A stretch of DNA of 38,423 nucleotides from a virus. The notes beneath the pieces were generated by a model that saw only the letters and a program-made list of their open reading frames with translations, was not told where the DNA came from and made no database searches. The position numbers and the translations under genes were made by a program. Of this stretch, positions 171 to 30,393 are shown in pieces (the first letter of the stretch is position 1; every line of letters begins with the position of its first letter). The DNA is taken from the IMG/VR virus record IMGVR_UViG_3300010883_000119, positions 1-38,423 of that record, one strand, 5' to 3'.

Positions 171-569
171 ATGAACAGGCCCTCAAAGCGAATACTGCGC
201 TACATGAAGCTGGCAGCAAAGGTTGCACAGGATTCAGTATACAACGATTATCGTCACGGAGCTTTGCTGATTCGTGGCGGTTCTGTTTTAAACTGGAGTG
301 AGAATAAGAACCAGTATTGTGGCTTTGGTAATCGCTTCAGACAATACAACACAGGATTGCCAACAGTTCACGCAGAGCTTGGTTGCATATTGGGCGTTGA
401 TAAGAGCAAGACAAAGAACGCAACGATCTACGTTGCACGCATTGGCAAAGCAGGCGATTGGCGCTTGAGCAAGCCGTGTGCGATGTGCATGGCAGCAGCT
501 AAGTTCGCAGGTGTCAGGCAGATTGTGTATACGATCGAAGATGGTGAAGTTGGAACGGCGAAGCTGTGA
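171..569 (+). CDS. cytidine/deoxycytidylate deaminase family protein
   Basis: Zinc-dependent deaminase of the CDA/dCMP deaminase fold. The zinc-site signature is present: HAE in the segment TVHAEL, and PCAMC about 40 residues later. In a phage it most likely turns dCMP into dUMP for thymidylate synthesis, which fits ThyX and a dUTPase in the same window; a free cytidine deaminase is an alternative. The frame is open from a TTG at 135, but 135-163 is a promoter, so ATG 171 (M-N-R-P) is preferred and gives 132 aa; ATG 162 and ATG 204 are other options. The first gene of a run coupled by overlaps: its stop overlaps the next GTG. Confidence 0.8.
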   Translation: MNRPSKRILRYMKLAAKVAQDSVYNDYRHGALLIRGGSVLNWSENKNQYCGFGNRFRQYNTGLPTVHAELGCILGVDKSKTKNATIYVARIGKAGDWRLSKPCAMCMAAAKFAGVRQIVYTIEDGEVGTAKL

Positions 570-742
570 TTGAGGTCGGAGATCTAGTGAAGGAAACTGC
601 AGCGCCATATCGAACACTAGGGATTGTGTTGGAAGCACAAAGGCACGTTTCTCAGGTTTGCTGGGTTAAGGCTTATCATAATATGATTTTGTTAGCCAGA
701 TGGGTTTTCAACGATGAGCTTGAGAAGATACACAATGATTAA
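566..742 (+). CDS. VGDL-family small protein 1
   Basis: 58-aa ORF with a GTG start overlapping the deaminase stop by 4 nt (GTGA). It opens with M-I-E-V-G-D-L-V, continues with a GIV strand and a VCWV strand, and ends acidic. This is the recurrent layout of about 20 small proteins in this window and resembles a KOW/SH3-like beta-barrel, although the fold is inferred. There is no enzymatic motif. Translation is probably coupled to the deaminase. Confidence 0.7.
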   Translation: MIEVGDLVKETAAPYRTLGIVLEAQRHVSQVCWVKAYHNMILLARWVFNDELEKIHND

Positions 743-959
743 GGAAGGCGATTTGGTAAGCAAGCTTGTGTCCCAGGGACAATTTGGCAGAGAAATGCCG
801 AAAGGGTTGGGGATCGTGATAGACACTCCGAAGCCAAGTCGCTGGACGTATGGAATCTATTGGATTGAGATCCCGGAAACAACGTTCATGTTCAAGATGG
901 CTAAGATAGCATTTGAGCATGTTGAACCTATAGTCAAATACGAAGAGGATAAGAAATGA
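735..959 (+). CDS. VGDL-family small protein 2
   Basis: 74-aa protein starting at ATG 735, inside the previous gene (8-nt overlap). The N-terminus reads M-I-K-E-G-D-L-V, a variant with E in place of V. A GLGIVID strand and an aromatic GIYWIE strand follow, matching the family pattern of motif, GIV, then x-W. The C-terminus is highly charged. The stop overlaps the exonuclease ATG (ATGA), so it is coupled to a replication gene. Function is unknown. Confidence 0.75.
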   Translation: MIKEGDLVSKLVSQGQFGREMPKGLGIVIDTPKPSRWTYGIYWIEIPETTFMFKMAKIAFEHVEPIVKYEEDKK

Positions 960-1903
960 AGAGAGTATTAATCATAGATGGGACCAATGCGTTCTACAGA
1001 GCACACATCGTTGACCCAAGCTTGTCAGCTAACGGCAATCCAATCGGAGGACTGAAGGGATTCCTTAAGATCTTCCAGAAGCTTTGCCGCGAGATGAAGC
1101 CAGACCGCATTGTGGTATGTTGGGACGGAGCAGGCGGTTCACAGAAGCGTAAGGCTATGGACAAAGGGTACAAAGCAGGCCGCAAGCCTCTGCGATTGAA
1201 CCGCAACCATTCGATGTTATCGCCAGATCAGGAACATCAGAACATGATCACTCAGCAACTGAGGCTGTTTGACTACATCGATGAGATGCCGGTGATTCAA
1301 CTGATAGCAGAGGGCGTTGAAGCAGATGATCTCATTGCAGTTGCTTGCCAGGAATATCCCGGACACCAAAAGATCATTGTTTCCTCAGACAAGGATTTCT
1401 ATCAGCTTCTGGACGATGAGACTGTGCTTTTCAGGCCAATCCAGAAGAAGGTGTACAACAAGCAGCGAATCATTGACGAGTTCGACATTCACCCTCGGAA
1501 CTTTGCACTTGCGAGGGCAACAGTTGGTGACAAGAGCGACAACATTGAGGGAGTGAAAGGAATAGGTCTTAAAACGATCGCAAAGCGAGTGCCGATTCTC
1601 AAGGAAGACAAAGACGTTACAGTTGCAGACCTGATTAGCTATTGCAAAGAGGTCGAATCTGATCTATCATGTTATACAAGCTTGATAGACGAAGAGGACA
1701 GGCTCAAACAGAACTACAAGATGATGCAGCTTTACAGTCCGTTAGTTTCCATACAGTTAAGGACCAAGATACAATCAATGATTGCAAGCTATCCGAAACA
1801 ACTGTCGAAGACTGAGGTCAAGAAGATGATGATTAAGGATGGCTTTCCAGAGATCCGAATGACTGATTTGTTTGCATGCATGAACAGGATAGCAAGTGAC
1901 TAA
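956..1903 (+). CDS. 5'-3' exonuclease / flap endonuclease
   Basis: 315-aa nuclease of the PIN/FEN family (as in PolI N-terminal domain, T5 D15, T4 RNase H). It would remove RNA primers and flaps during phage DNA replication. Visible motifs: metal-binding D8 in LIIDGTNAFYRA, the basic arch-like KAMDKGYKAGRK, the acidic GVEADDLIA, SSDKDFYQLL, and the helix-hairpin-helix region GDKSDNIEGVKGIGLKTI. The size matches stand-alone phage exonucleases, and no polymerase domain is attached; the phage polymerase is the separate Pol III alpha at 16.3 kb. It overlaps the genes on both sides by 4-8 nt. Confidence 0.93.
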   Translation: MKRVLIIDGTNAFYRAHIVDPSLSANGNPIGGLKGFLKIFQKLCREMKPDRIVVCWDGAGGSQKRKAMDKGYKAGRKPLRLNRNHSMLSPDQEHQNMITQQLRLFDYIDEMPVIQLIAEGVEADDLIAVACQEYPGHQKIIVSSDKDFYQLLDDETVLFRPIQKKVYNKQRIIDEFDIHPRNFALARATVGDKSDNIEGVKGIGLKTIAKRVPILKEDKDVTVADLISYCKEVESDLSCYTSLIDEEDRLKQNYKMMQLYSPLVSIQLRTKIQSMIASYPKQLSKTEVKKMMIKDGFPEIRMTDLFACMNRIASD

Positions 1904-2129
1904 GTTTGAAGTGGGGGACGTTGTTGAGGGCAGTTGGCCAGAAGCACACAGAGATGTTGGCCATAGCCATCGCGGAATTGTTGTGGGTCGCGAAGAGACA
2001 AGGCCAAAAGCCCTCCGCTGGCTACCGGGATGGGTTGTTCATCCCGCTTGGATAGTAATACGATGGCTTGGCAAGGCTCACATTGAATACTATACAGAGG
2101 ATAACAAAGGCTTGAGGAAGCTGTCATGA
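1896..2129 (+). CDS. VGDL-family small protein 3
   Basis: 77-aa protein with a GTG start that overlaps the exonuclease end by 8 nt. The N-terminal motif is K-F-E-V-G-D-V-V, followed by HRGIVVG and an Arg/Trp-rich middle (RWLPGW, WIVIRW) with the family's aromatic beta-strand pattern. It has more tryptophans than its paralogues. It ends in an ATGA overlap with the next family member. Role unknown. Confidence 0.75.
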   Translation: MTKFEVGDVVEGSWPEAHRDVGHSHRGIVVGREETRPKALRWLPGWVVHPAWIVIRWLGKAHIEYYTEDNKGLRKLS

Positions 2130-2341
2130 AGTTTGAAGTAGGTGATCTGTATCGAGCAGTTGAATGCTGCAATGAATATCGCACCGAAGAATCCATCAAG
2201 AAGGCGTGGGTTATTGTGATTGGTATCAATGAGGTAGCTTGCAAGCTTGATGGAAGAACCGATTGGAATATGTATGCAATTGATGTGTTACAAAGAGCCA
2301 TTGATGCACCGAATAGGGCAATAGTCGAGAAAGTATGTTAA
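2126..2341 (+). CDS. VGDL-family small protein 4
   Basis: 71-aa protein opening with M-K-F-E-V-G-D-L-Y. Its first 17 nt (ATGAAGTTTGAAGTAGG) are identical to those of the family genes at 34638 and 36721, although the rest has diverged. A predicted strand AWVIVIGI follows. The stop overlaps the helicase start by 7 nt, so the pair sits inside the replication operon. No known function. Confidence 0.75.
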   Translation: MKFEVGDLYRAVECCNEYRTEESIKKAWVIVIGINEVACKLDGRTDWNMYAIDVLQRAIDAPNRAIVEKVC

Positions 2342-3720
2342 ACGCACAAGATAAGGTAGATTTCAGTAAGTTCGGCATCAAGTTCCAGGAGAACCTCGTC
2401 AAACTCATCGTGCTTGATCGACAGTTCGCTGATCAGATCGGTGAAGTGCTTGATATGAGCTTCTTTGAGAGCAAGTCATTACAGGTTCTGTCAAACGTTG
2501 TCTACGAACACAAGATACAGTACAAGATGCATCCGTCATTACAGACGCTTGCCATAATCGTGAAAAGCAGCATCGAAACTGAGAATGACATCGTTCAGAA
2601 GCAGGTTCGTGACTTGCTTGTCAGGATCTATGCCAATCAGGATGTTGATGGCAGAGAATACATCAAAGACACAGCACTTGATTTCTGCAGGAAACAGAAG
2701 CTCAAGGAAGCCATCATTAAGTCAGTTGAACTATTGAACAAGTCATCCTTTGATGAAATCTCAGGTCTTATCAACAAAGCTCTGACGCTTGGTCAAGAGA
2801 ACAACTTTGGACATGATTACATTGCTGACTTTGAACAACGGTATACACTGAAGACACGCAACGCAGTGTCAACGGGCTGGGACGAGGTTGATGCTATCAC
2901 GAGAGGCGGATTGGGCAAAGGCGAGCTTGCCATCGTCATTGCAGCAACAGGAGGTGGCAAAAGCCATGTACTTGTTCACCTTGGAGCGACCGCAATCCAA
3001 AAGGGACTGAGCGTTGTTCATTATACATTGGAGATGTCAGCAGAAGATGTAGCTTTACGATATGACAGCTTGAACACAAAGACAAGCTTCGATGATTTGC
3101 ACGAGTTCAAGGATCTCGTTAAGGAGAACATCCAGAAGATCAAAGGCACTCTGACAGTCAAGAAGTATCCGCCACGACGAGCAACGACCAACACAATCAA
3201 GAATCATCTTGAAAAGCTCCGCAACAAAGGACAGAAGGTTGATTTGATCTTGGTTGATTATGCTGACTTGGTTAAACCAGTCAAGTATGGCTCAGAGAAG
3301 CGCCATGACCTTGAGATCATCAACGAAGAGTTGATTGCCATTGCAGAAGACTTTGAATGTCCGATAGTTAGCGCCAGCCAAACGAATAGATCCGGCCTGA
3401 ACGCTGAGTTAATCACTATGGAATCAATCGCAGAGGCTTACAGCAAATGCTGGCCAGCACATCTGATCTTCACACTATCGAGAACCATTGAGGATAAGAA
3501 GAACAAGACTGGAAGGTTGTTCATTGCAAAGAATCGCAGTGGCATCGACGGTTCGGTGTTCTCTATTTATATGGACACTGCGAAGAGTGAAATACGCATC
3601 ACAGCAGACACAACGGACGAGATCATCAACAAGGATCCAGCGAAGTCACAGTTGGACAACCTGAAGAAGCAATACAAAGAGTTGCAAGCAGAACAAAAGG
3701 CTGAGATCAAAGCAACTTGA
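2335..3720 (+). CDS. replicative DNA helicase, DnaB/gp41-like
   Basis: 461-aa RecA-fold helicase. The helical N-terminal domain covers roughly residues 1-150. The C-terminal domain opens with STGWDEVDAITRGGLGKGEL, the Walker A is AATGGGKS (about 203-210) and the Walker B is LILVDYAD (about 304-311). YTLEMSAEDVALRYDS and SASQTNRSG are typical DnaB motifs H2 and H3. The C-terminus is Lys/Glu-rich (KAEIKAT). It should form a hexamer unwinding DNA ahead of the phage polymerase. No primase is fused to it. The last gene before a terminator-like hairpin. Confidence 0.93.
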   Translation: MLNAQDKVDFSKFGIKFQENLVKLIVLDRQFADQIGEVLDMSFFESKSLQVLSNVVYEHKIQYKMHPSLQTLAIIVKSSIETENDIVQKQVRDLLVRIYANQDVDGREYIKDTALDFCRKQKLKEAIIKSVELLNKSSFDEISGLINKALTLGQENNFGHDYIADFEQRYTLKTRNAVSTGWDEVDAITRGGLGKGELAIVIAATGGGKSHVLVHLGATAIQKGLSVVHYTLEMSAEDVALRYDSLNTKTSFDDLHEFKDLVKENIQKIKGTLTVKKYPPRRATTNTIKNHLEKLRNKGQKVDLILVDYADLVKPVKYGSEKRHDLEIINEELIAIAEDFECPIVSASQTNRSGLNAELITMESIAEAYSKCWPAHLIFTLSRTIEDKKNKTGRLFIAKNRSGIDGSVFSIYMDTAKSEIRITADTTDEIINKDPAKSQLDNLKKQYKELQAEQKAEIKAT

Positions 3721-3727
3721 AAAGTAC

Positions 3728-3759
3728 GATCAGTCTGAAAATTCTGCTGGTCATTTTTT
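3728..3759 (+). terminator. probable weak intrinsic terminator after the helicase
   Basis: A 6-bp stem GATCAG (3728-3733) / CTGGTC (3747-3752, one G-U pair) encloses a 13-nt AT-rich loop and is followed one base later by TTTTTT. It lies in the 60-nt gap between the helicase and the protease gene. The stem is short, so termination is likely partial. Confidence 0.4.
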
Positions 3760-3780
3760 GAGATATTAGAAGGAGAGAGT

Positions 3781-4386
3781 ATGTTTGTTAAGAAAATCAT
3801 CAGCAACCTGCTAAACAAAGAGGCAGATCTCAAAGCAGATCCATTCATCGTTCGAGTGAACAACTTCACAGAGAAGGCGGCAGCACAGTTCGCTCTGGAG
3901 ATGGGCCATGCTCACAACACAGGCCAATCGGTGATTCCTGTTGTCATTGACAGTTATGGAGGCAACGTTTACTCGTTGATGGCAATGATATCAACAGTCC
4001 AGCAAGCACAAATGCCCGTTGCAATGATCGTTGAGGGCAAAGCTATGTCATGTGGTTCAATTCTCAGCACATTCGGCAATGAGGGAATGCGCTTCTGCGA
4101 TCCTAACGCCACGTTCATGATCCATGACGTTGCAGGCACGGGACGTGGAAAGACTGAGGAAGTGAAGATGTGCGCTAAGGAGATAGAGCGACTGAATGAA
4201 ATCGTGCATAAGATGATGGCACAGAACTGCGGTAAAGCAGATGATTACTTCCTTAAGATCGCTGATAAGAAGAAGCATGCAGACTGGTATTTCGATGCCA
4301 AAGAAGCAAAGAAACATGGCATAGTCAATCACATTCGAGTGCCAAAGATGACAGCAACGGTTGAAGTGAAGATTGAGTTTGAGTGA
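3781..4386 (+). CDS. ClpP-like serine protease
   Basis: 201-aa protein with the ClpP fold and a complete catalytic triad: Ser90 in GKAMSCGS, His115 in FMIHDV, and Asp168 in the segment ADWYFDAKEAKKHGIVNH. SYGGNVYSLMAM matches the ClpP oxyanion/handle region (usually S-x-G-G). In phages such proteins are either head-maturation proteases or auxiliary degradation subunits; no capsid gene is nearby, so the target is open. A strong AAGGAG site lies just upstream of ATG 3781. The Asn-rich, short N-terminus lacks the usual ClpP axial loop motif, so pairing with a host ClpX/ClpA cannot be assumed. Confidence 0.85.
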   Translation: MFVKKIISNLLNKEADLKADPFIVRVNNFTEKAAAQFALEMGHAHNTGQSVIPVVIDSYGGNVYSLMAMISTVQQAQMPVAMIVEGKAMSCGSILSTFGNEGMRFCDPNATFMIHDVAGTGRGKTEEVKMCAKEIERLNEIVHKMMAQNCGKADDYFLKIADKKKHADWYFDAKEAKKHGIVNHIRVPKMTATVEVKIEFE

Positions 4387-4391
4387 ACAAC

Positions 4392-4592
4392 ATGAATAAC
4401 GCAGCATATCTGTACAGTTTGGTTATGACAATGGCAACAACATATGAAAGATGTGGTACGACGATAAAGCCTTGTGGGTTTCACCACCCACTACGGCAGT
4501 TTCCGACGTTGAGAGTCGTTGGGAGTTCTAACATGCTAATGATGATGACTGTCGATGCATATAATGATGCAGTTTTGAAGGAGAATGAGTAA
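4392..4592 (+). CDS. hypothetical small protein
   Basis: 66-aa ORF between the protease and ribonucleotide reductase; a GTG at 4383 overlapping the protease stop is an alternative start. The ends look protein-like (NNAAYLYSLVMTMATTYE at the start, VDAYNDAVLKENE at the end), but the middle (Cys, His, Pro-rich) corresponds to a perfect RNA hairpin and is less convincing. It overlaps the reductase start by 8 nt, which suggests coupling. No family recognised. Confidence 0.5.
   Translation: MNNAAYLYSLVMTMATTYERCGTTIKPCGFHHPLRQFPTLRVVGSSNMLMMMTVDAYNDAVLKENE
4474..4491 (+). other. perfect 6-bp hairpin inside the small ORF before RNR
   Basis: GTGGGT (4474-4479), a 6-nt loop and ACCCAC (4486-4491), followed about 20 nt later by a second small stem CGAC/GTCG. 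It may be a structured mRNA element controlling the downstream reductase, or chance. No cobalamin-riboswitch box was recognised. Confidence 0.3.
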
Positions 4593-6453
4593 CATGGAAT
4601 TAGCTAGCAAGATCTTATCGGACATCACAGTCCACATGAAGTACGCAAAGTACATCCCGCACAAAAAGCGTAGGGAAACGTGGGATGAGATTGTCACTCG
4701 TAACCGAGACATGCATCTTAAGAAGTATCCCGAACTGAAAGGTGAGATCGAAGCTGCTTATGAGTTCGTTTATGATCGCAGGGTTTTGCCATCAATGCGA
4801 GCATTGCAGTTCGGCGGCAAACCTATCGAGATCAACCCAGCACGCCAGTACAATTGTGCTTTCGCGCCCATCAATGACTGGCGAGTGTTCAGTGAGGTCA
4901 TGTTTCTGCTGCTTTCGGGCTGCGGAGTGGGATTCTCGGTGCAAGCTCATGACATTGAGAGACTGCCGGAAATCAAGCGTCCGAACTCAAAGAGAACAAG
5001 ACGATATCTTGTTGCAGATAGCATTGAAGGTTGGGCAGATGCGCTTAAGGCACTGATGAAGAGCTATTTCTTTGGAGGTTCAACGCTGCGCTTTGATTAC
5101 GGTGCGATTCGGCAGAAGGGAGCGTTGCTTGTGACTTCAGGCGGTAAAGCGCCAGGGCCACAACCACTGAAGGAATGTATACTTAAAGTTGGAGGGATAT
5201 TAGATGAAAAAGAAGAAGGTGACAGTTTATCAACGATTGAAGTACATGACATTGTCTGCCATATCGCGGACGCTGTACTTGCTGGCGGAATCCGTAGAGC
5301 GGCGCTCTTAAGCTTGTTCGATGCTGATGACCCTGAGATGTTAGCAGCAAAGGCTGGCAATTGGTGGGAACAGAATCCACAAAGAGGCAGAGCCAACAAC
5401 TCTGTGAATCTCATGAGGCATATGATAACGAAAGATGTCTTTAAGGAGATTTGGGAGCGAGTTGAAGCTTCAGGTTGCGGAGAACCTGGGTTTTACCTGT
5501 CGAACGATATGTCATATGGAACGAACCCATGCGGGGAAATCGCATTGAAGCCGTTTCAGTTCTGCAACCTTGTTGAGATCAACGCCGCCATCATCAAGAC
5601 ACAACAGGAGCTAAATGACTGTGCAAAGGCAGCTTCGTTCATTGGCACGCTTCAAGCTGGCTATACGGACTTTCATTACCTTCGCGATGTTTGGAAGCGC
5701 ACAACAGAGCGCGATGCGCTGATTGGTGTCAGCATGACAGCCATTGCATCGGAATCAGTGTTAAAGCTAGACTCAGAAGAGGCTGCAAAGCTTGTGGTTG
5801 CTGAGAACGAGAGAGTCGCAAATAACATCGGGATCAATAAGGCTGCCCGCTGCACAACAGTCAAGCCGTCTGGAACCACAAGCCTTGTGCTTGGAACATC
5901 AAGCGGAATCCATGCTTGGTTCGATCAGTTTTACATTCGACGCATAAGAGTTGGGAAGAACGAGTCGATCTATCATTATCTTCTTCGGAATCATCCAGAG
6001 TTGGTTGAGGACGAGTATTTCAGGCCGCATGATACGGCAGTGATTTCAATTCCTCAGAAAGCTCCAGACGATGCGATTCTAAGAAGCGAGTCAGCATTAC
6101 ACTTCCTAAAACGCATCAAGAAGATCTTCTCAGAATGGGTTAAACCGGGACATAGAAAAGGCCAGAACACACACAACGTATCAGCAACAGTGTCAATCAA
6201 GGACAACGAATGGTTCGATGTCGGCGAATGGATGTGGGATAACCGGAAGTTCTATAATGGTTTGACTGTGTTACCAGATACAGACCATACATTTCGCCAG
6301 CCACCCTTTGAGTCTTGTTCTAAGGAGACATATGAGCATCTTGTTGAGAGCCTTAAGCTAGTCGATCTAACCAAGGTCGTTGAGGACCAAGACAACACAG
6401 ACTTGCAAGGCGAACTAGCTTGCGCTGGACCTGACGGCTGTGCTGTGCTATAA
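4585..6453 (+). CDS. nrdJ: adenosylcobalamin-dependent (class II) ribonucleoside-triphosphate reductase
   Basis: 622-aa glycyl-free, single-chain reductase that makes dNTPs from NTPs using a B12 cofactor. Features of the RTPR/NrdJ family: YNCAFAPI (first redox Cys), LLLSGCGVGFSV, the active-site loop GTNPCGEIALKPFQFCNL (thiyl Cys, catalytic Glu and second redox Cys), TTVKPSGTTSLVLG, and a C-terminal cysteine pair in ACAGPDGCAVL that regenerates the active site. There is no ATP-cone and no class I radical-subunit gene nearby. It is shorter than the roughly 740-aa Lactobacillus enzyme. It would supply dNTPs with the deaminase, dUTPase and ThyX of this window, in an oxygen-independent manner. 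Confidence 0.9.
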   Translation: MSNMELASKILSDITVHMKYAKYIPHKKRRETWDEIVTRNRDMHLKKYPELKGEIEAAYEFVYDRRVLPSMRALQFGGKPIEINPARQYNCAFAPINDWRVFSEVMFLLLSGCGVGFSVQAHDIERLPEIKRPNSKRTRRYLVADSIEGWADALKALMKSYFFGGSTLRFDYGAIRQKGALLVTSGGKAPGPQPLKECILKVGGILDEKEEGDSLSTIEVHDIVCHIADAVLAGGIRRAALLSLFDADDPEMLAAKAGNWWEQNPQRGRANNSVNLMRHMITKDVFKEIWERVEASGCGEPGFYLSNDMSYGTNPCGEIALKPFQFCNLVEINAAIIKTQQELNDCAKAASFIGTLQAGYTDFHYLRDVWKRTTERDALIGVSMTAIASESVLKLDSEEAAKLVVAENERVANNIGINKAARCTTVKPSGTTSLVLGTSSGIHAWFDQFYIRRIRVGKNESIYHYLLRNHPELVEDEYFRPHDTAVISIPQKAPDDAILRSESALHFLKRIKKIFSEWVKPGHRKGQNTHNVSATVSIKDNEWFDVGEWMWDNRKFYNGLTVLPDTDHTFRQPPFESCSKETYEHLVESLKLVDLTKVVEDQDNTDLQGELACAGPDGCAVL

Positions 6454-6454
6454 T
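6426..6454 (+). promoter_or_regulatory. sigma70-type promoter at the 3' end of RNR
   Basis: TGGACC (6426-6431, 4/6 match), a 17-bp spacer and TATAAT (6449-6454) with extended -10 CTGTGC-TATAATG. The -10 contains the RNR stop codon. The predicted transcript start falls on the next gene's ATG at 6461. Confidence 0.6.
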
Positions 6455-6460
6455 GTATGC

Positions 6461-7165
6461 ATGGAACGATGGGACAGGATAGTTTGGTCAGCGTGTGTGG
6501 TTGTCTCGATTCTGCTCATTGCAGAGCGTGTCAGAGCATCGCCGATTACGATTCAGGGCGTCAAGGTTCATGTGAAGTACGACAGGGACGTTTACTTTCC
6601 GCCGCACAAGCAGCAAAGCCCATTCAATGCGAGGTGTACGCAAGCGACGAGCAGAGAGATTAGGATTGCGACGAAAGACGTTAGAAGGTTCCTAAAGAAG
6701 TACAACCGACAAACGATAAGGAACAATCTCAAGCATGTGTTCGTTTGTGGAATGCTGAGGTTTCATGGAGTGCAATATGCCGGAACTTACATCGATAACG
6801 GTATCTACGTTGACAATGACGACCCGTATTTTCATATGCATCATGAATTCTCCAGCATTCTTATGAGAAACAGGAGCTTTGGCTTTCCGTGGACTGAGTG
6901 GGTAATGTTGAGGTCAGGACAGGGCAATAGAAGTCAAGATCCCTTCTTGACTAAGAAGATACCAGCTTACAAACAAACGAGAGCGTTGCTTCAAAAGGGA
7001 TTCTGGATTGCGTATGCTGCAACAGACTTAGAGAATGACTTCAACGTGGTTGCGACATATTACATGACGGACAGGACAAGACTCAAGAGGAAGTCAGCTA
7101 AGTACCCGAAGATGAAGGCGAAGTATGACATTGTTGACCGGATGTACAAAGGACTGATAAGATGA
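6461..7165 (+). CDS. predicted exported protein with HHEF/ENDF motifs
   Basis: 234-aa protein. Residues about 7-23 form a hydrophobic segment (IVWSACVVVSILLIAERV) followed by ASP, consistent with a signal peptide or N-terminal anchor, so it probably acts in the periplasm or membrane. Downstream lie YFHMHHEFSSIL and DLENDFNVVATYYM. The H-x-x-E-like and E-N-D-F pair in this order resembles a gluzincin metalloprotease (zinc histidines, then a later acidic ligand), but the second His of HExxH is absent, so catalysis is doubtful. The frame extends upstream to 6440, inside the promoter; ATG 6461 is the best start. The C-terminus is Lys/Arg-rich. Confidence 0.75.
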   Translation: MERWDRIVWSACVVVSILLIAERVRASPITIQGVKVHVKYDRDVYFPPHKQQSPFNARCTQATSREIRIATKDVRRFLKKYNRQTIRNNLKHVFVCGMLRFHGVQYAGTYIDNGIYVDNDDPYFHMHHEFSSILMRNRSFGFPWTEWVMLRSGQGNRSQDPFLTKKIPAYKQTRALLQKGFWIAYAATDLENDFNVVATYYMTDRTRLKRKSAKYPKMKAKYDIVDRMYKGLIR

Positions 7166-7296
7166 TAGACGAAGCTGAGATGTTACTGGAAACGATTGGC
7201 GGATATGTGGCTAGCATGATGTTGATGAACATGGGTTTGGTGTTGATTGGTGTGTTGATTGGTGTTGGGATTTGGTATAGGAGTTATAAGCGATGA
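7162..7296 (+). CDS. small membrane protein (44 aa)
   Basis: A 44-codon ORF overlapping the previous stop (ATGA at 7162). An acidic N-terminus (MIDEAEML) is followed by one long hydrophobic stretch of Met, Leu, Val, Gly and Ile (about residues 16-37) and a basic YRSYKR tail. This is a typical single-pass phage membrane peptide with N-out/C-in charge bias. No family known. Confidence 0.55.
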   Translation: MIDEAEMLLETIGGYVASMMLMNMGLVLIGVLIGVGIWYRSYKR

Positions 7297-7346
7297 GTGA
7301 AGAACAATTGAAGGAACTCAATGAGGACATGAATGATGAATCGTAA
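7293..7346 (+). CDS. possible tiny acidic peptide (17 aa)
   Basis: ATG 7293 overlaps the previous stop (ATGA) and reads MSEEQLKELNEDMNDES before TAA. It bridges the 36-nt gap to the next gene, so it may act as a translational relay rather than a functional product. Too short to assess by composition. Confidence 0.25.
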   Translation: MSEEQLKELNEDMNDES

Positions 7347-7527
7347 ATTCCAGATTTGGCTCAAATGCGAATCGCTCGTTGGTACTCGGATTGATATGAT
7401 TGATAGGATGACATTCGCCGAGGCTGCCAGCGAAGCTTATGGGTTGGTTCACGATATGCTTCAGAAGACAGGCAAGAACTGGCGAGTGGATCAGATCAAG
7501 GACATTGGGAAGGTTGAAGATGAATAA
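7333..7527 (+). CDS. hypothetical protein (64 aa)
   Basis: Starts at ATG 7333 (or 7336) overlapping the small peptide upstream. The sequence has a KFQIWLKCES strand followed by an amphipathic helix (FAEAASEAYGLVHDML) and a short charged tail, an alpha/beta mini-domain without a recognised family. It overlaps the next start by 8 nt. Confidence 0.6.
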   Translation: MMNRKFQIWLKCESLVGTRIDMIDRMTFAEAASEAYGLVHDMLQKTGKNWRVDQIKDIGKVEDE

Positions 7528-9302: not shown

Positions 9303-9598
9303 TGATGATGAACGGACCAGAAACACACTACTTTGATTGCGAATGCGAATCAGTAGAACATACGATTCGCTTTGTTTGCGACGAGTACGAACCAGATGAC
9401 AAGGAATTGTTCGTTGAAGTACAGCTCATGCAGCATCGCTCATTTGTTAAGCGACTGTGGGTAGCTTTGAGATATGTCTTTGGCTATCAATGTAAGTATG
9501 GACATTGGGACACTACGACATTCAAGCAGGAAGACTTGGTTAAGCTCCAGGAACTGGCGGAGCGAGCAAAGCACGTTAAGAGTAAGGAATCGGTTTAA
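9299..9598 (+). CDS. conserved phage hypothetical protein
   Basis: 99-aa protein overlapping the thyX stop (start MMMMNGPE). The layout is YFDCECESVEHTIRF, a strand-rich acidic part, then SFVKRLWVALRYVFGYQCKYGHWD and a helical tail. The paired CxC and C-x-Y-G-H segments resemble small phage proteins seen in many large phages, although no function is known to me. It ends convergently with the reverse-strand protease, overlapping it by 23 nt. Confidence 0.7.
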   Translation: MMMMNGPETHYFDCECESVEHTIRFVCDEYEPDDKELFVEVQLMQHRSFVKRLWVALRYVFGYQCKYGHWDTTTFKQEDLVKLQELAERAKHVKSKESV

Positions 9599-10370
9599 AC
9601 ATCGTGCTTACCTTCATAATGATGTCTAACACTTGTTTGAAGAACAGCTTCTTTTCATGCTCTTGGATGGTTGACTCAACGAAGCTCTTAAGCACATCAT
9701 AATTTGGACCTCTTGAAAGGGCAGGGAATGCTCTGTAGACAGAGTGAATCATTCCAACGAGTTGGCCTTTGTAGTTGAAGACGGGAGAGCCAGACGAACC
9801 ACCAGTTGCGAGGATTGAATAGATGGCAGCTTCACCAAGAGTCCCGCTGTAATAGCCTTCGAGGATGGGAACCATTCCCTTCCCAAAGATGCCAGCAGGA
9901 GCAGCCAAGTTGAAGACCTTATCACCAATTGATGGAGCAGTCTGTGACATAGTTACAACAGGAGCCAAGAAGTCTTTTGACCATAACAGACACATGTCAT
10001 GTTTCTTATTGATACTAACGACTTCAACATCGTAATGAACCTTGTTGATATCAATCGCCGTGAACTTGAGGTTGAAGGTTTTGTTCTTGAAGGCTTTCAG
10101 GAAGTCGTTTGTGCAAACGTGGCCAGCAGTTAGAATGAAGACACCTTTGGAGTTACGCTTGACGACGACACCGCTAGCTGACGAACCGAACCTGCGAGTT
10201 ACACAGAGCTTCTTGACAGGATCACAATGCGATACGGAGAGAAGCTTGCTTATCTTAACGAATGACTTCCTTGGGAGAATGTGTCCCATCTTGATTTTCT
10301 GATGGGAAGCACATGACATTGTTGAGAGAATCAACAAGGTTACTAAGAGCAAACGACAAATGGGTTTCAT
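9576..10370 (-). CDS. exported trypsin-like serine protease, probable lipoprotein
   Basis: 264 aa, the only reverse-strand gene. A 20-residue hydrophobic signal ends in TMSCAS, a lipobox-like Cys. The body has a chymotrypsin-fold triad: His in ILTAGHVC, Asp in NKKHDMCLLW and Ser in TGGSSGSPVFN, so activity is plausible. It would act outside the cytoplasmic membrane, for example on envelope or surface proteins during infection or lysis. An accessory (moron-like) gene is a reasonable reading given its lone orientation next to the lysis genes. Its start faces an intergenic region that holds TATAAATA on its own strand, about 37 nt upstream. Confidence 0.85.
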   Translation of the reverse strand: MKPICRLLLVTLLILSTMSCASHQKIKMGHILPRKSFVKISKLLSVSHCDPVKKLCVTRRFGSSASGVVVKRNSKGVFILTAGHVCTNDFLKAFKNKTFNLKFTAIDINKVHYDVEVVSINKKHDMCLLWSKDFLAPVVTMSQTAPSIGDKVFNLAAPAGIFGKGMVPILEGYYSGTLGEAAIYSILATGGSSGSPVFNYKGQLVGMIHSVYRAFPALSRGPNYDVLKSFVESTIQEHEKKLFFKQVLDIIMKVSTMFKPIPYS

Positions 10371-11230: not shown

Positions 11231-12124
11231 ATGAACTTTGATCAGAAGGTATTTTACAACACCGCAAGCGCAGTTAAACTAGACTGGAAGCCCGAATGGT
11301 TCGGAGTGTCAGGCTTTGGACGGAAATTCATCAAAGCTGTCAAGGTATTCCAGAAGGAACACGATCTTAAAGCAGATGGTTTGGTTGGCCCAGTTACATT
11401 CAGGCGCATCTTCACACATCATATGGCTGACATTGAAATGCGTCACCCAGAAGACAAGTCAAACTACATTATATGTAACAAACAGAAGGTCGAGATTGAG
11501 TGGGATAAGGTGATATCAATCGATGTCGAAGCCTCACTCAAGCTACCGAAGTCGAACTACAGGGCATACAGCAAGCGCCGCAAACCATCAATGATTGCAA
11601 CGCATTGGGATGTTGCATTGTCCGCAGCAAGCTGTCATAGCATTCTATATAGGAAGGGAATCTCAACACACTTTGCCATCGACAATGATGGAACGATCTA
11701 TCAGTTTGTTGATACGAACCATGCTTGTTGGCACGCCGGAATCAGAAGTGTTAACAATAAGAGCATCGGCATTGACTTGAGCAATGCTTATTACATCAAG
11801 TACAACAAGCTGTATGAGAAGCGAGGCTTTGGACTCAGGCCAATCATCACAGACTCTGTTATCCATGGCCGGAAGCTTGGCGACCATCTGGGATTCTATG
11901 GAGTTCAGATCCAGGCATACTCAGCGCTCGTGGATGCGCTGTGTTCGCACTATGACATTCCTTTGATGTCTCCAGAGGATGAAGCTGGCAACGCGATGTA
12001 CGGCGTTCACAGGGCAGCCAGCAAGGCTAGGTTCAAGGGCGTCGTCAGCCACTTTCATTTGACACGTCGAAAGATTGATACAGCAGGGCTTGATATTCAA
12101 AGGGTATTGAACAACTTAAAGTGA
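11231..12124 (+). CDS. endolysin: N-acetylmuramoyl-L-alanine amidase with peptidoglycan-binding domain
   Basis: 297-aa lysin. Residues about 10-60 match a PG_binding_1 repeat (FIKAVKVFQKEHDLKADGLVGPVT). The catalytic amidase_2/PGRP-type domain runs from about 110: MIATHWDVA gives the first zinc His; ISTHFAIDNDGTIYQFVD, HAGIRSVNNKSIGIDLSN and VSHFHLTRRKIDTAGLD supply further ligands. It should cleave the amide bond between muramic acid and the stem peptide at lysis. No signal peptide is visible, so release likely needs a holin, perhaps the upstream TM proteins. Confidence 0.88.
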   Translation: MNFDQKVFYNTASAVKLDWKPEWFGVSGFGRKFIKAVKVFQKEHDLKADGLVGPVTFRRIFTHHMADIEMRHPEDKSNYIICNKQKVEIEWDKVISIDVEASLKLPKSNYRAYSKRRKPSMIATHWDVALSAASCHSILYRKGISTHFAIDNDGTIYQFVDTNHACWHAGIRSVNNKSIGIDLSNAYYIKYNKLYEKRGFGLRPIITDSVIHGRKLGDHLGFYGVQIQAYSALVDALCSHYDIPLMSPEDEAGNAMYGVHRAASKARFKGVVSHFHLTRRKIDTAGLDIQRVLNNLK

Positions 12125-13047
12125 TGATGAACAAACACTTCAAAGGCTGGCGCAGCTTTCTCGCTGAGGTCAATACTAACGATTGGGCTGGCGATGATTG
12201 GGGTGAGATGGCCAAGCGCGCAGTGCGTAAACCAACACCGCGCAATCGTGATACAGTTGGTCATGCAGATCCCAACATCGTGCAAGAGCTATTGAACACA
12301 TATGGAATGAATAGCACTCAGAACCACAATTTCAAGATGATGGCGAATACTGAAAGACTTAGAGAAATTGTGATTGAGAAGGGATCAATTGCAGACGCAG
12401 CCCGCAAGCTTGGTTCATTAACACACCAGATTGCTTTGATGACAAAGGAGAATAAGATCTTCTCAGAAACTAAGATGCTTGAGTTTTTAGGAGCGGGCAA
12501 CTTCGGCGCAGTGTTCACGCTTGACAACGGGCATGTCTTAAAGATATCATATGGTTCATTTGATCCAGAGTTTCGCGCAACAGATTATGGCGGGCATACT
12601 GACGCAAAGAAACATGAAAAAGCTCAAGCAGAAACGTTCAAGGACAAGTCAGCCTCAAAGAGTACTCTAATGATTTATGACTATGGTACATTGCAGTTCT
12701 CAAACACTGCAGAAGATCTGTATTACGTTGAGATGCCTGAGTTGATTCCGCTGGCGAAGTATTTTAGGCATATGGATAGGCTCTCTGTGTATAATGATGT
12801 CGCTTATGTCAAGATTGCTGTGCTAGAGCGTCTGTTCCCGCCAAACCAACCCTATGGAAATCCATACAAAGTCAAGGTGCTGAATCGAGGACAGGTGACG
12901 AGTTTGGTAAAAGAGCTTGTTAAGATCATCAAAGCTTCAGGCGCAAAAGGCTATGAAGCGGGTAGCAATGCTGTTGAAGATGTGAGGGCTCCGAACGTTG
13001 GTGTTCTCATCCAAGATCCAGACACGCTTGTCATATTTGACTACTAA
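12124..13047 (+). CDS. protein-kinase-like protein with possible head-packaging N-terminus
   Basis: 307 aa, start ATG 12124 overlapping the amidase stop. The first 15 residues, MMNKHFKGWRSFLAE, resemble the T4 capsid-targeting sequence (MKTYQEFIAE), which ends at an L/I-x-E protease site. The region from about 120 has a Gly-rich loop (LGAGNFGAVF), a Lys in HVLKIS, an E-M-P-E-L-like hinge, then DVRAPN (D with N five residues on, as in the kinase catalytic loop) and a terminal IFDY where kinases have DFG. The protein ends right after this, so it lacks a full C-lobe. It could be a kinase, or a fold relative, injected with the DNA; activity is unproven. Confidence 0.6.
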   Translation: MMNKHFKGWRSFLAEVNTNDWAGDDWGEMAKRAVRKPTPRNRDTVGHADPNIVQELLNTYGMNSTQNHNFKMMANTERLREIVIEKGSIADAARKLGSLTHQIALMTKENKIFSETKMLEFLGAGNFGAVFTLDNGHVLKISYGSFDPEFRATDYGGHTDAKKHEKAQAETFKDKSASKSTLMIYDYGTLQFSNTAEDLYYVEMPELIPLAKYFRHMDRLSVYNDVAYVKIAVLERLFPPNQPYGNPYKVKVLNRGQVTSLVKELVKIIKASGAKGYEAGSNAVEDVRAPNVGVLIQDPDTLVIFDY

Positions 13048-24322: not shown

Positions 24323-24949
24323 ATGAGTGACAAGAATAAGAAGCAACTTTTGGAAGAGGGCACAGTTCGAAGGTGGATGCAATATGCCGACATCGGACCA
24401 TCAACGTCTGAGAAGTTCCTAAGCGAGAACTATGGCGAGACTGAAGAGGCACAAGGTCCTTGCGATAAAGGTCAGACATACAACAAGGAGACCGGCAAGT
24501 GTGATGAGGGCGGTATGCCATACCAAGGACTTGACGAAGCTGGTGGAATGGAAGCGGAGATCGGCGATGAGCCCGCAGACATGGCCCCAGAAGGCGGCGA
24601 AGAGCTTGCCATGGACGACGAAGTGCCTGAAATGGCTGATGAGCTTCCCGAGCCAGATGTTGATGGCGAAGCTGCCGAAGCTGCCGAAGTCACGATCACT
24701 CCCGAAGAGCTTGAAGTGCTTACCAAGGTGCTTGGCGATCTAGTCGCTGCACAGGGTGGCGAAGGCGACATGGGCGACGAGCTTGACATGGGCGATGAAG
24801 ATGAGCTTCCGCCTGCCGAAGATGAGCTTGGTGGTGAAGAGTTGGGCGGTGAAGAGCTTCCCGAAGAAGAGCCCATGATGGAGAGTCTTGTTAATAAGAT
24901 TGCTCAACGAGTTGCTAAACGTTTGATGAAAGAACGAAAAAAGAAGTAA
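24323..24949 (+). CDS. very acidic probable head/virion-associated protein
   Basis: 208 aa. The N-terminus (QLLEEGTVRRWMQYADIGPS, then EKFL) resembles the E-x-T-V-R-R-F-M-K-L-A motif found at the start of several virion proteins of large T4-like marine phages. The centre (about 60-180) is extremely rich in Glu, Asp, Gly and Pro with repeated GGEEL and GDMGDELDMGDE units, and the C-terminus is basic (RVAKRLMKERKKK). The acidic middle and basic end suit a scaffold, core or internal head protein. It is the first gene behind the candidate late promoter and is SD-led (GGGAG). Confidence 0.6.
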   Translation: MSDKNKKQLLEEGTVRRWMQYADIGPSTSEKFLSENYGETEEAQGPCDKGQTYNKETGKCDEGGMPYQGLDEAGGMEAEIGDEPADMAPEGGEELAMDDEVPEMADELPEPDVDGEAAEAAEVTITPEELEVLTKVLGDLVAAQGGEGDMGDELDMGDEDELPPAEDELGGEELGGEELPEEEPMMESLVNKIAQRVAKRLMKERKKK

Positions 24950-28152: not shown

Positions 28153-29838
28153 ATGAACAAAGAACAACTAATGAACGAATTGCTTGCGGATCTTCTAGAA
28201 AGGAAGATTACCATCAAAGAAGTAGAAGACCCTAAAGTAAATCCGATCAACTTCTCAGCTATTAAGATTACTGAAGAGTGGGGCAAAAGAGTTTCGGCAG
28301 ATCGTAGGGTTGTTGAGATGATCACAAAAAACCTCAAAGGAACGACCGTCGGAGAAAAGATTAATAATCTTCAGTCGTTTATTGACGCCGCTCTAGCGAA
28401 CAGTTTTTCTCAGAAGTATACAGTTGCTGAGATTTTATCACAATTAATGTATCTTGAATCATTTCGAAGCATTATTGTTGAGTTCAGTGCAGCAGTCACA
28501 GGCTTTTTGTTTGAAGCATTGCTCGCGGGAACGATGGAAGGTGAACAGATTGCCGATCCAGTTGATGGTTCATTACCGATCGAAGACATCTTAGTTGGAG
28601 AGAAGACGCCTTACAGTTTGAAGGTATTACGGAAAGGCGGCGTTGTCAAGGGAAGCTTCAAGAACCTTGTTGATTACTTCGCGCCACCCAAAGAAGGCGT
28701 CGAAGCTAGAGACAAGATTACCTATCTTATTGTTATCAAAGAAACAAACGATCTAGAAAAGGACGAGTTAAGACTTAGATTCTATGAGTTTGATATCACG
28801 ACTGAGAACTTCTTAGAGTGGATTGGACATAAGAACGTGAAAGACATGCAAGTTCGCTCACCATACGAATATCGCCCCGGACAAGAACTAGAAGATGTTC
28901 TTCAAAGGGACGGAATTAAGATGTCTAGTGATTTCTCCAGATCGAAGCTTGCAGTCGTCAAAACGGGAAGGCCATCAGATCTATTCACTAAGCGGCAGTT
29001 AAAGGTTCATGTTCCAGAACAGCCGCCAACCTTTAAGATCTCAAAGAACCTATGGAAGTCAGCAAAGATCCATATTGCTCCAGCACAAGTTGAGGGAGAT
29101 TATGAGGATTCCATTCTACCAATTGGGACAGTGTTAGATCCTGAACTAGAATACGTTGCGTTATCGCCTGGAGAAGAGCAGACATACTTGGTCACAGGAC
29201 CAATGGTTAAGGCTGGCATTCAGAACCAAGATGGTGAGTTCATGAGCAAGGGCGACAAGCTGGATGAAGATCAGGCGTATACAATGCAGATCCGCCAGGG
29301 GGAGGTTGAAGAACGAACGTCAGATACAAAAGAGTATCAAGATCTATATCACAATATCCTAAACGATAGTCCAGAGTTGCTTGATCCGAATCATCCTGAG
29401 TTTTTTCAGACACTTAAACAATCATCTGGATATCTTCGCAAATCTCAATGGCATATCAGCTCTGACTTCTATAGAAAAAGGGCTAATATGCTGGGCGAAT
29501 TGTCTCTGTCGCGCGAACATATTGACCATGCAGCTTGGACATATGTTTCTTCTTTGAGAAACGAGGTTGCAAAGATTTATAACTCATTGACAGCGTTGAT
29601 CGAAAATATCAATCTTTACTTTTTGGCCGACAATCAAAAAGCGGGGATGGACGCTGTACAGAACTCAGCGGACGTACACAAGTATACCAAGACTTCGCTT
29701 GGAATGGACAGACCATTCACAGGCCGTGAGCCATACTTCAGTAGCCAGCCAGTCGACAAACCATATGTGACAGAGGCTGTTGAACCATCTAAGATAACAC
29801 TAGATAGCTTCATCGATTCAATCATCAAACATTCTTAA
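28153..29838 (+). CDS. large hypothetical protein (561 aa), possible virion or nuclease-like protein
   Basis: Not recognised with confidence. The N-terminal 90 residues are helical; the region around 115-180 (GFLFEALLAGTMEGEQIADP, then TPYSLKVL, KGSFKNLVDYF) has an E...D...S-L-K arrangement reminiscent of PD-(D/E)xK nuclease folds. The centre (ITYLIVIKETNDLEKDELRLRF) is strand-rich. The C-terminal third has long helices, ending TLDSFIDSIIKHS. It precedes the Hsp20 promoter and is the second-longest gene here after the polymerase apart from RNR. A structural role is equally possible. Confidence 0.65.
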   Translation: MNKEQLMNELLADLLERKITIKEVEDPKVNPINFSAIKITEEWGKRVSADRRVVEMITKNLKGTTVGEKINNLQSFIDAALANSFSQKYTVAEILSQLMYLESFRSIIVEFSAAVTGFLFEALLAGTMEGEQIADPVDGSLPIEDILVGEKTPYSLKVLRKGGVVKGSFKNLVDYFAPPKEGVEARDKITYLIVIKETNDLEKDELRLRFYEFDITTENFLEWIGHKNVKDMQVRSPYEYRPGQELEDVLQRDGIKMSSDFSRSKLAVVKTGRPSDLFTKRQLKVHVPEQPPTFKISKNLWKSAKIHIAPAQVEGDYEDSILPIGTVLDPELEYVALSPGEEQTYLVTGPMVKAGIQNQDGEFMSKGDKLDEDQAYTMQIRQGEVEERTSDTKEYQDLYHNILNDSPELLDPNHPEFFQTLKQSSGYLRKSQWHISSDFYRKRANMLGELSLSREHIDHAAWTYVSSLRNEVAKIYNSLTALIENINLYFLADNQKAGMDAVQNSADVHKYTKTSLGMDRPFTGREPYFSSQPVDKPYVTEAVEPSKITLDSFIDSIIKHS

Positions 29839-29931: not shown

Positions 29932-30393
29932 ATGTTTATTAAAGGTATTGATTTTGGTCATGGAACGGCTGATTGGGCACGGGAATATGAGCGACTGGCA
30001 AAGCCTGTTCGAAAGGATGTGAAAGCTGTAGGTCAAGCTATGGATGAGTTGCTTGGATGGAATCCAAGTTGGAATAATGTTTCAGCAGTAAGTGTCAAAA
30101 GCGACGAGATCCTTGATTCAGAAGGTCATTGGCAGATCACAGTTCCGGTTGCTGGGATGAAGAAGGAAGACTTCGCGTTGACTCGCAAGGCTAACAAGCT
30201 AACGCTTTCAGTCCGCGACACTGTCAACGCTTTGGACACTAAGTGGCTTGCTAAGAAGTCATGGACATGGACTCTCAACAAGGACGTTGAAGATGATGGG
30301 ATCTCTGCAGAGTGCAAAGATGGTGTTATGACAATCACCATTGAAAAACCTGAGCAGATGAATCCGACCGAAGCCAGCATTAGCATTAACTAA
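29932..30393 (+). CDS. small heat-shock protein (Hsp20/alpha-crystallin family)
   Basis: 153-aa holdase chaperone. After a helical N-terminus (KAVGQAMDELLGWNPSW, which fits Hsp20 oligomerisation arms), the alpha-crystallin domain runs from about 60 to 145: HWQITVPVAGMKKEDFALTR, KLTLSV and DGVMTITIEKP (the conserved GVLxxxxPK-type end is replaced by GVMTITIEK). The C-terminal ISIN resembles the I-x-I tail motif that locks oligomers. It likely buffers aggregation during infection. Confidence 0.88.
   Translation: MFIKGIDFGHGTADWAREYERLAKPVRKDVKAVGQAMDELLGWNPSWNNVSAVSVKSDEILDSEGHWQITVPVAGMKKEDFALTRKANKLTLSVRDTVNALDTKWLAKKSWTWTLNKDVEDDGISAECKDGVMTITIEKPEQMNPTEASISIN

Follow-up and report, generated by a model that had tools for sequence, protein, structure and literature searches.

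Can a phage load a protein kinase into its head and inject it together with its DNA? The question is raised by IMGVR_UViG_3300010883_000119, an IMG/VR record of 38,423 bases (a genome fragment, hereafter the window), which encodes a DnaB-like helicase, a ribonucleotide reductase, ThyX, DNA polymerase III alpha (PolIII), GroEL and, at 12124-13047, a kinase-like protein. The original prediction held that this protein starts with a leader resembling the capsid-targeting sequence (CTS) of T4 internal proteins and Alt, and that its body has kinase motifs; a packaged, injected kinase-type effector was considered notable. Our analysis favors, at roughly two chances in three, a reading in which a modular capsid-targeting propeptide is fused to a minimal T7-like kinase that would be pre-loaded in the head and injected. 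The open reading frame (ORF) is real, its leader and its kinase residues both being kept in a syntenic homologue, and the argument for packaging is that the leader matches a tag borne, in related viruses, by dozens of unrelated proteins and resembling a head-packing signal, and therefore the kinase is probably particle-carried.

The window protein has a 14-residue N-terminal leader that ends in L/I-x-E, as the T4-type CTS does with its 10-20 residues. Its predicted cut falls after E15 (E14 from the second ATG), at the motif L13-A14-E15, and the orthologue has L-T-E. The ATG at 12124 shares one base with the TGA of the upstream amidase gene 11231-12124, and a second ATG at 12127 is an equally possible start that puts the leader in exactly the 14-residue register of the family presented further on. 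In the CTS of T4 IPIII, residues 4 and 7 are needed for targeting and residues 8 and 10 for processing, and gp21 cleaves after L/I-x-E (PMC9026906). Counting back from the Glu, W9, F12, L13 and E15 of the window protein align with these four positions, and all four are kept in the homologue. The proposed likeness to the T4 CTS therefore holds for the four functional positions and the L/I-x-E match, and is best described as a shared pattern, since 10-14 residues cannot demonstrate homology.

Within the window, one of 68 ORFs matches the leader as a regular expression where 0.28 would be expected, which is not significant alone. When starts are scored with a matrix from independent leaders, the kinase start comes first among the window's 802 possible starts and that of the orthologue first among 994 in its contig; first rank in both is a stronger fact than the window score alone. 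A chance origin of the leader, with which the window by itself is compatible, was rejected on the comparative data that follow.

A search for the leader in other phage proteins, which the original prediction had suggested, shows that it is not peculiar to this one. Scanning viral contigs for the strict pattern MKxhxENWxx[FY]hxE gave at least 120 stretches, and the 145 complete leader proteins among the matches listed fall into 91 clusters whose bodies lack similarity at E 1e-5. Recognized bodies include Nudix, zeta-toxin-like, GNAT, 5'-nucleotidase, P-loop, tRNA-ligase CPD, amidase and M23 proteins, and there are two further leader-bearing kinases (L158 and L205). The consensus is MKLLxENWRx[FY]LNE. 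To limit circularity, we also anchored starts on MxxhxENW alone: conservation reaches position 14 and stops there, and among 75 starts independent of the selection Glu is found at position 14 in 53, and at 14 or 15 in 68. Peptidase_S77, the gp21 family, is encoded by 8 of the 13 leader contigs longer than 90 kb. A leader-only tblastn against cultured phages returned Microviridae matches only, which we judged to be chance, and no published description of the family was found in the literature searched, the coverage of which was incomplete.

A link between leader, kinase and T4-type head genes comes from IMGVR_UViG_3300030202_003733 (G005), a 183-kb contig found among PolIII relatives, whose two ends overlap, sharing one coding sequence. 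It encodes a Gp23 major capsid protein (E 3e-62) and a Peptidase_S77 (E 8e-27), and 12 of its 222 ORFs, one of them a kinase, start with such a leader, as compared with a mean of 0.92 and a maximum of 5 in 1000 shuffles. Most of these genes form a tandem cluster that spans 178-183 kb and continues across the join to 7.5 kb. Of the two kinases in the cluster, one has the leader MNKLFKNWRGYIFE, which is nearly identical to MNKHFKGWRSFLAE in the window; the other is more closely related to the window kinase but has the looser leader MSLLLKEWKTFTE. The cluster (178058-183023 plus 208-7462) holds genes of unrelated kinds, among them, besides these kinases, one for a protein that by eye is a HAD-like phosphatase type.

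The single syntenic relative found is contig IMGVR_UViG_3300008050_000080 (L002), in which the kinase (6001-7071), 54% identical, likewise lies directly after an amidase gene. Leader and catalytic residues are preserved, whereas large insertions set the two proteins apart in the stretch behind the leader. Identity between the two contigs is 80-89% for DnaB, ribonucleotide reductase and PolIII, 77% for the amidase and 46% (local alignment) for the kinase; such faster divergence of the kinase is what would be expected of an arms-race effector. Alignment-based searches, run on viral as well as genome contigs, gave only L002 and the G005 lineage as relatives of the kinase.

The body of the protein has four sets of kinase residues: glycine-rich loop, ATP-binding Lys, Asp-x4-Asn and metal-binding Asp. 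The first three of these had been correctly read from the sequence (G123-G128, K140 and D286-x4-N291). The "DFG-like" end proposed with them is right in its invariant Asp, D306, and reads FDY, immediately before the stop codon. The protein thus ends one residue past the DFG-type Asp and therefore has no C-terminal kinase lobe. Across distant, divergent relatives the Lys, the Asn and this last Asp are invariant. The window contains a single match to the G-loop pattern, whereas 100 shuffles gave none, and a scan for the G-loop/VLK pattern gave 37 stretches in viral contigs, most of them kinase-like with the same end, DxxxxN and then FD (a wider kinase alignment that included L022 was dropped because the C terminus was misaligned). 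Pfam and PHROG scans showed no domain in the protein beyond what is described here.

Profile comparisons place this body near the kinase of T7. The PHROG 15752 profile (T7 gp0.7 kinase) is matched by the L002 homologue (E 3.1e-5), by L232 of the G005 lineage (E 3.1e-6) and by L043 (E 6.6e-6), and hhalign of the window group against five T7-type kinases gave E 2e-6 and a probability of 89% over the N-lobe. A tblastn search of cultured phages returned weak N-lobe matches only, to Bacillus and T7-like kinases; one further match, in MT836271, was rejected because it falls in an unrelated regulator-like protein. A PDB sequence search with the window kinase gave no match. Structure prediction, which had been suggested as a check, is compatible with the fold, at low confidence: both AlphaFold models (mean pLDDT about 50) show strands and helices in kinase order, and the 50 PDB structures listed for each are all kinases or kinase-fold phosphotransferases, at low TM-scores, with APH(2'')-Ia among the best. 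Viral structure matches include T7-like phage kinases.

The original prediction is, in sum, partly supported and widened, and both of its halves stand at the sequence level: the leader as a modular N-terminal tag on many unrelated proteins of T4-type phages encoding a gp21-type protease, and the body as a minimal phage kinase similar to T7 gp0.7, with predicted activity. On this reading, T4-type internal-protein targeting would have a minimal T7-like kinase as its cargo. During assembly, the leader would bind the prohead core and draw the kinase into the head, where the gp21-type protease of the phage would cut after the Glu of L-A-E and the leader would be lost. The kinase would then sit beside the DNA, be injected together with it and phosphorylate proteins of the host at time zero, ahead of any phage gene expression. 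Its likeliest targets would be proteins of transcription or RNA metabolism, or of anti-phage defence, the latter being plausible because T7-type kinases act on DndFGH, CasD, HerA and QatABCD, thereby disarming several defence systems (PMC12345140).

Several observations weigh against this reading. Neither Gp23 nor Peptidase_S77 was found when searched for in the 38-kb window, which has no detected head module, and the kinase is the only leader-bearing protein there. Its leader is off-consensus, with a matrix score of -1.6 as compared with 25-38 for strict members, a modest value that some shuffled sets exceed. The window has four copies of the T4-type late promoter TATAAATA, every one of them on the minus strand and none upstream of the kinase gene, and an argument for late expression from this promoter was dropped for that reason. 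Amidase and M23 peptidase bodies are odd, unexplained cargo for a head. As for the body, it lacks the catalytic His of HRD; on its own, the window protein fails to match the T7 kinase profile and gives nothing significant in Pfam and PHROG scans, and the mean pLDDT of the two models is as low as 51 and 50.

Three other explanations have to be set beside the pre-loaded kinase. The leader might be a modular tag with another role (for instance recruitment to a replication or assembly compartment, the membrane or a chaperone) that stays uncleaved, the kinase acting in the producing cell. The same modularity would be expected of such a tag, Nudix, zeta-toxin-like, GNAT, amidase and M23 bodies are not all obvious injected effectors, and 5 of the 13 large leader contigs, possibly fragments, have no detected Peptidase_S77. 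We nevertheless consider this unlikely, because conservation stops abruptly at the Glu after [FY][LIV]x, as at the L/I-x-E site of gp21, and because G005 has the leader together with T4-type protease and capsid protein. It is improbable that the kinase is simply expressed early from injected DNA, as T7 gp0.7 is, with a leader likeness that is vestigial or coincidental. The similarity to gp0.7, the weak membership of the window leader in its set and the location of the gene among replication and nucleotide genes would all fit; however, both sisters and the G005 kinase retain the leader residues, whereas the region that follows diverges by indels, and the neighbor is a lysis-type amidase gene, of a kind that is usually late.

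The remaining alternative concerns the body, which could be a pseudokinase or a small-molecule kinase of APH type instead of a protein kinase, whether packaged or not. The missing HRD His and C-lobe, and the presence of APH(2'')-Ia among the best structural matches, speak for it. The invariance of Lys, Asn and DFG-type Asp across divergent relatives speaks against it, as does the similar reduction of T7 gp0.7 and of the kinases in polyvalent proteins (PMC5512222), and we regard it as doubtful, a little more so than a tag with another role. For the family as a whole, we put slightly better than even odds on MKLLxENWRx[FY]LxE being a general code by which T4-type phages of uncultured, mostly environmental lineages load their heads with many exchangeable effectors, including minimal kinases.

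Comparison with known systems sharpens what would be unusual in a pre-loaded kinase. Like T4 IPI-III and Alt, the CTS of which is cut by gp21, the window protein has a short N-terminal leader with an aromatic-x-x-F-[IL]-x-E layout and an L/I-x-E end; in its relative G005, one type of leader serves unrelated cargo bodies, and T4-type capsid protein and protease are encoded. It differs in having a kinase as cargo, in the many more cargo types and in the consensus MKLLxENWRx[FY]LNE, packaging being predicted only. With the T7 gp0.7 family (including JSS1_004) it shares the reduced core, G-loop, VLK/VIK Lys, DxxxxN and Asp, and profile matches of its relatives are significant. However, it has a leader, would be injected instead of expressed early and lacks the C-terminal basic host-shutoff domain, and it was therefore not filed as a gp0.7 orthologue. 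Kinases in phage polyvalent proteins have lost the whole C-terminal subdomain and kept the active site; stand-alone versions are reported and particle delivery has been proposed, and their further features are a Glu before strand 2, a conserved Gln in the last N-lobe strand and a His-Asp insert (Iyer et al. 2017, PMC5512222). The window protein shows the same truncation with the active site retained, but it is a stand-alone protein of 307 residues with a short, cleavable-looking leader and does not lie within a large multidomain protein. Internal head proteins of SPN3US similarly have protease-processed N-terminal propeptides, with the differences, in the parts of these reports consulted, that the motif is A-x-E, that the propeptides are mostly long and that no kinase is described (PMC7411985, PMC10052503).

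If the pre-loaded kinase is real, such enzymes would hit host defence or expression machinery at DNA entry and be spared the expression delay of the T7 gp0.7 type, making them the pre-loaded counterpart of the defence-disarming T7-type kinases. T4 Alt and IPI are head-packaged proteins that take effect in the host ahead of phage gene expression, and to our knowledge few cargos of this kind have been described. A head tag that can be read from sequence on 91 unrelated bodies would turn genes of unknown function in uncultured phages into predicted injected effectors.

Table. Positions of the kinase gene, its parts and the adjoining amidase gene in the window
Feature	Positions	Strand	Remarks
Kinase-like protein with leader	12124..13047	+	307 aa (306 from second ATG); homologue L002:6001-7071
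14-residue leader M-N-K-H-F-K-G-W-R-S-F-L-A-E, predicted capsid-targeting propeptide	12127..12168	+	register of the G005 kinase leader MNKLFKNWRGYIFE
Fast-diverging spacer/helical region, residues 16-115	12169..12468	+	large indels relative to L002; low-confidence helices in model
Minimal kinase domain, residues 116-307, without C-terminal lobe	12469..13044	+	
Glycine-rich loop GAGNFG (G123-A-G-N-F-G128)	12490..12507	+	
ATP-binding Lys140	12541..12543	+	invariant in collected kinases
Catalytic loop D286-V-R-A-P-N291	12979..12996	+	N invariant, D in most relatives
DFG-equivalent F305-D306-Y307 at C terminus	13036..13044	+	Asp invariant
N-acetylmuramoyl-L-alanine amidase with peptidoglycan-binding domain	11231..12124	+	Amidase_2 E 6.9e-18; same neighbor in L002

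Other features of the window deserve mention. The only clear minus-strand gene, at 9576-10370, encodes a trypsin-like serine protease, the start of which looks by eye like that of a lipoprotein; TATAAATA lies 37-44 bases upstream of it and has a counterpart in G001 at 29932. An acidic protein (24323-24949) starts with MSDKNKKQLLEEGTVRRWMQYADIGPSTSEKFLSENY; its N terminus is conserved in the sister contig, its acidic body variable. Between 33001 and 37357 there is a run of short ORFs that start like MKFEVGDLV and are apparently diverged tandem paralogues. The protein of 561 residues encoded at 28153-29838 has no Pfam or PHROG match and no leader, and its homologue on the minus strand of L204 (3093-4019; BLASTP E 2e-27) has the leader MKLLFENWKNYITE.

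Reduced kinases also turned up in other settings. In L011 (LR756508.1, an uncultured phage of 484 kb), a gene for a protein that, judged by eye only, may be ADP-ribosyltransferase-like (2044-2826) adjoins one for a minimal kinase (2827-3480); the two begin MRLKSVIEEA and MVKLKDLLSEA, perhaps a second leader type. L018, L035 and L049 encode an 836-residue protein with the start MNIRNIIRETFSVLFEEE, in which a reduced kinase is followed by a region that by eye resembles an ADP-ribosyltransferase. Lastly, L013, L020, L021, L023, L027, L029, L037, L038, L040, L045 and L047 encode very large viral proteins with several reduced kinase-like domains per chain, reaching 1954 residues within the stretches examined.
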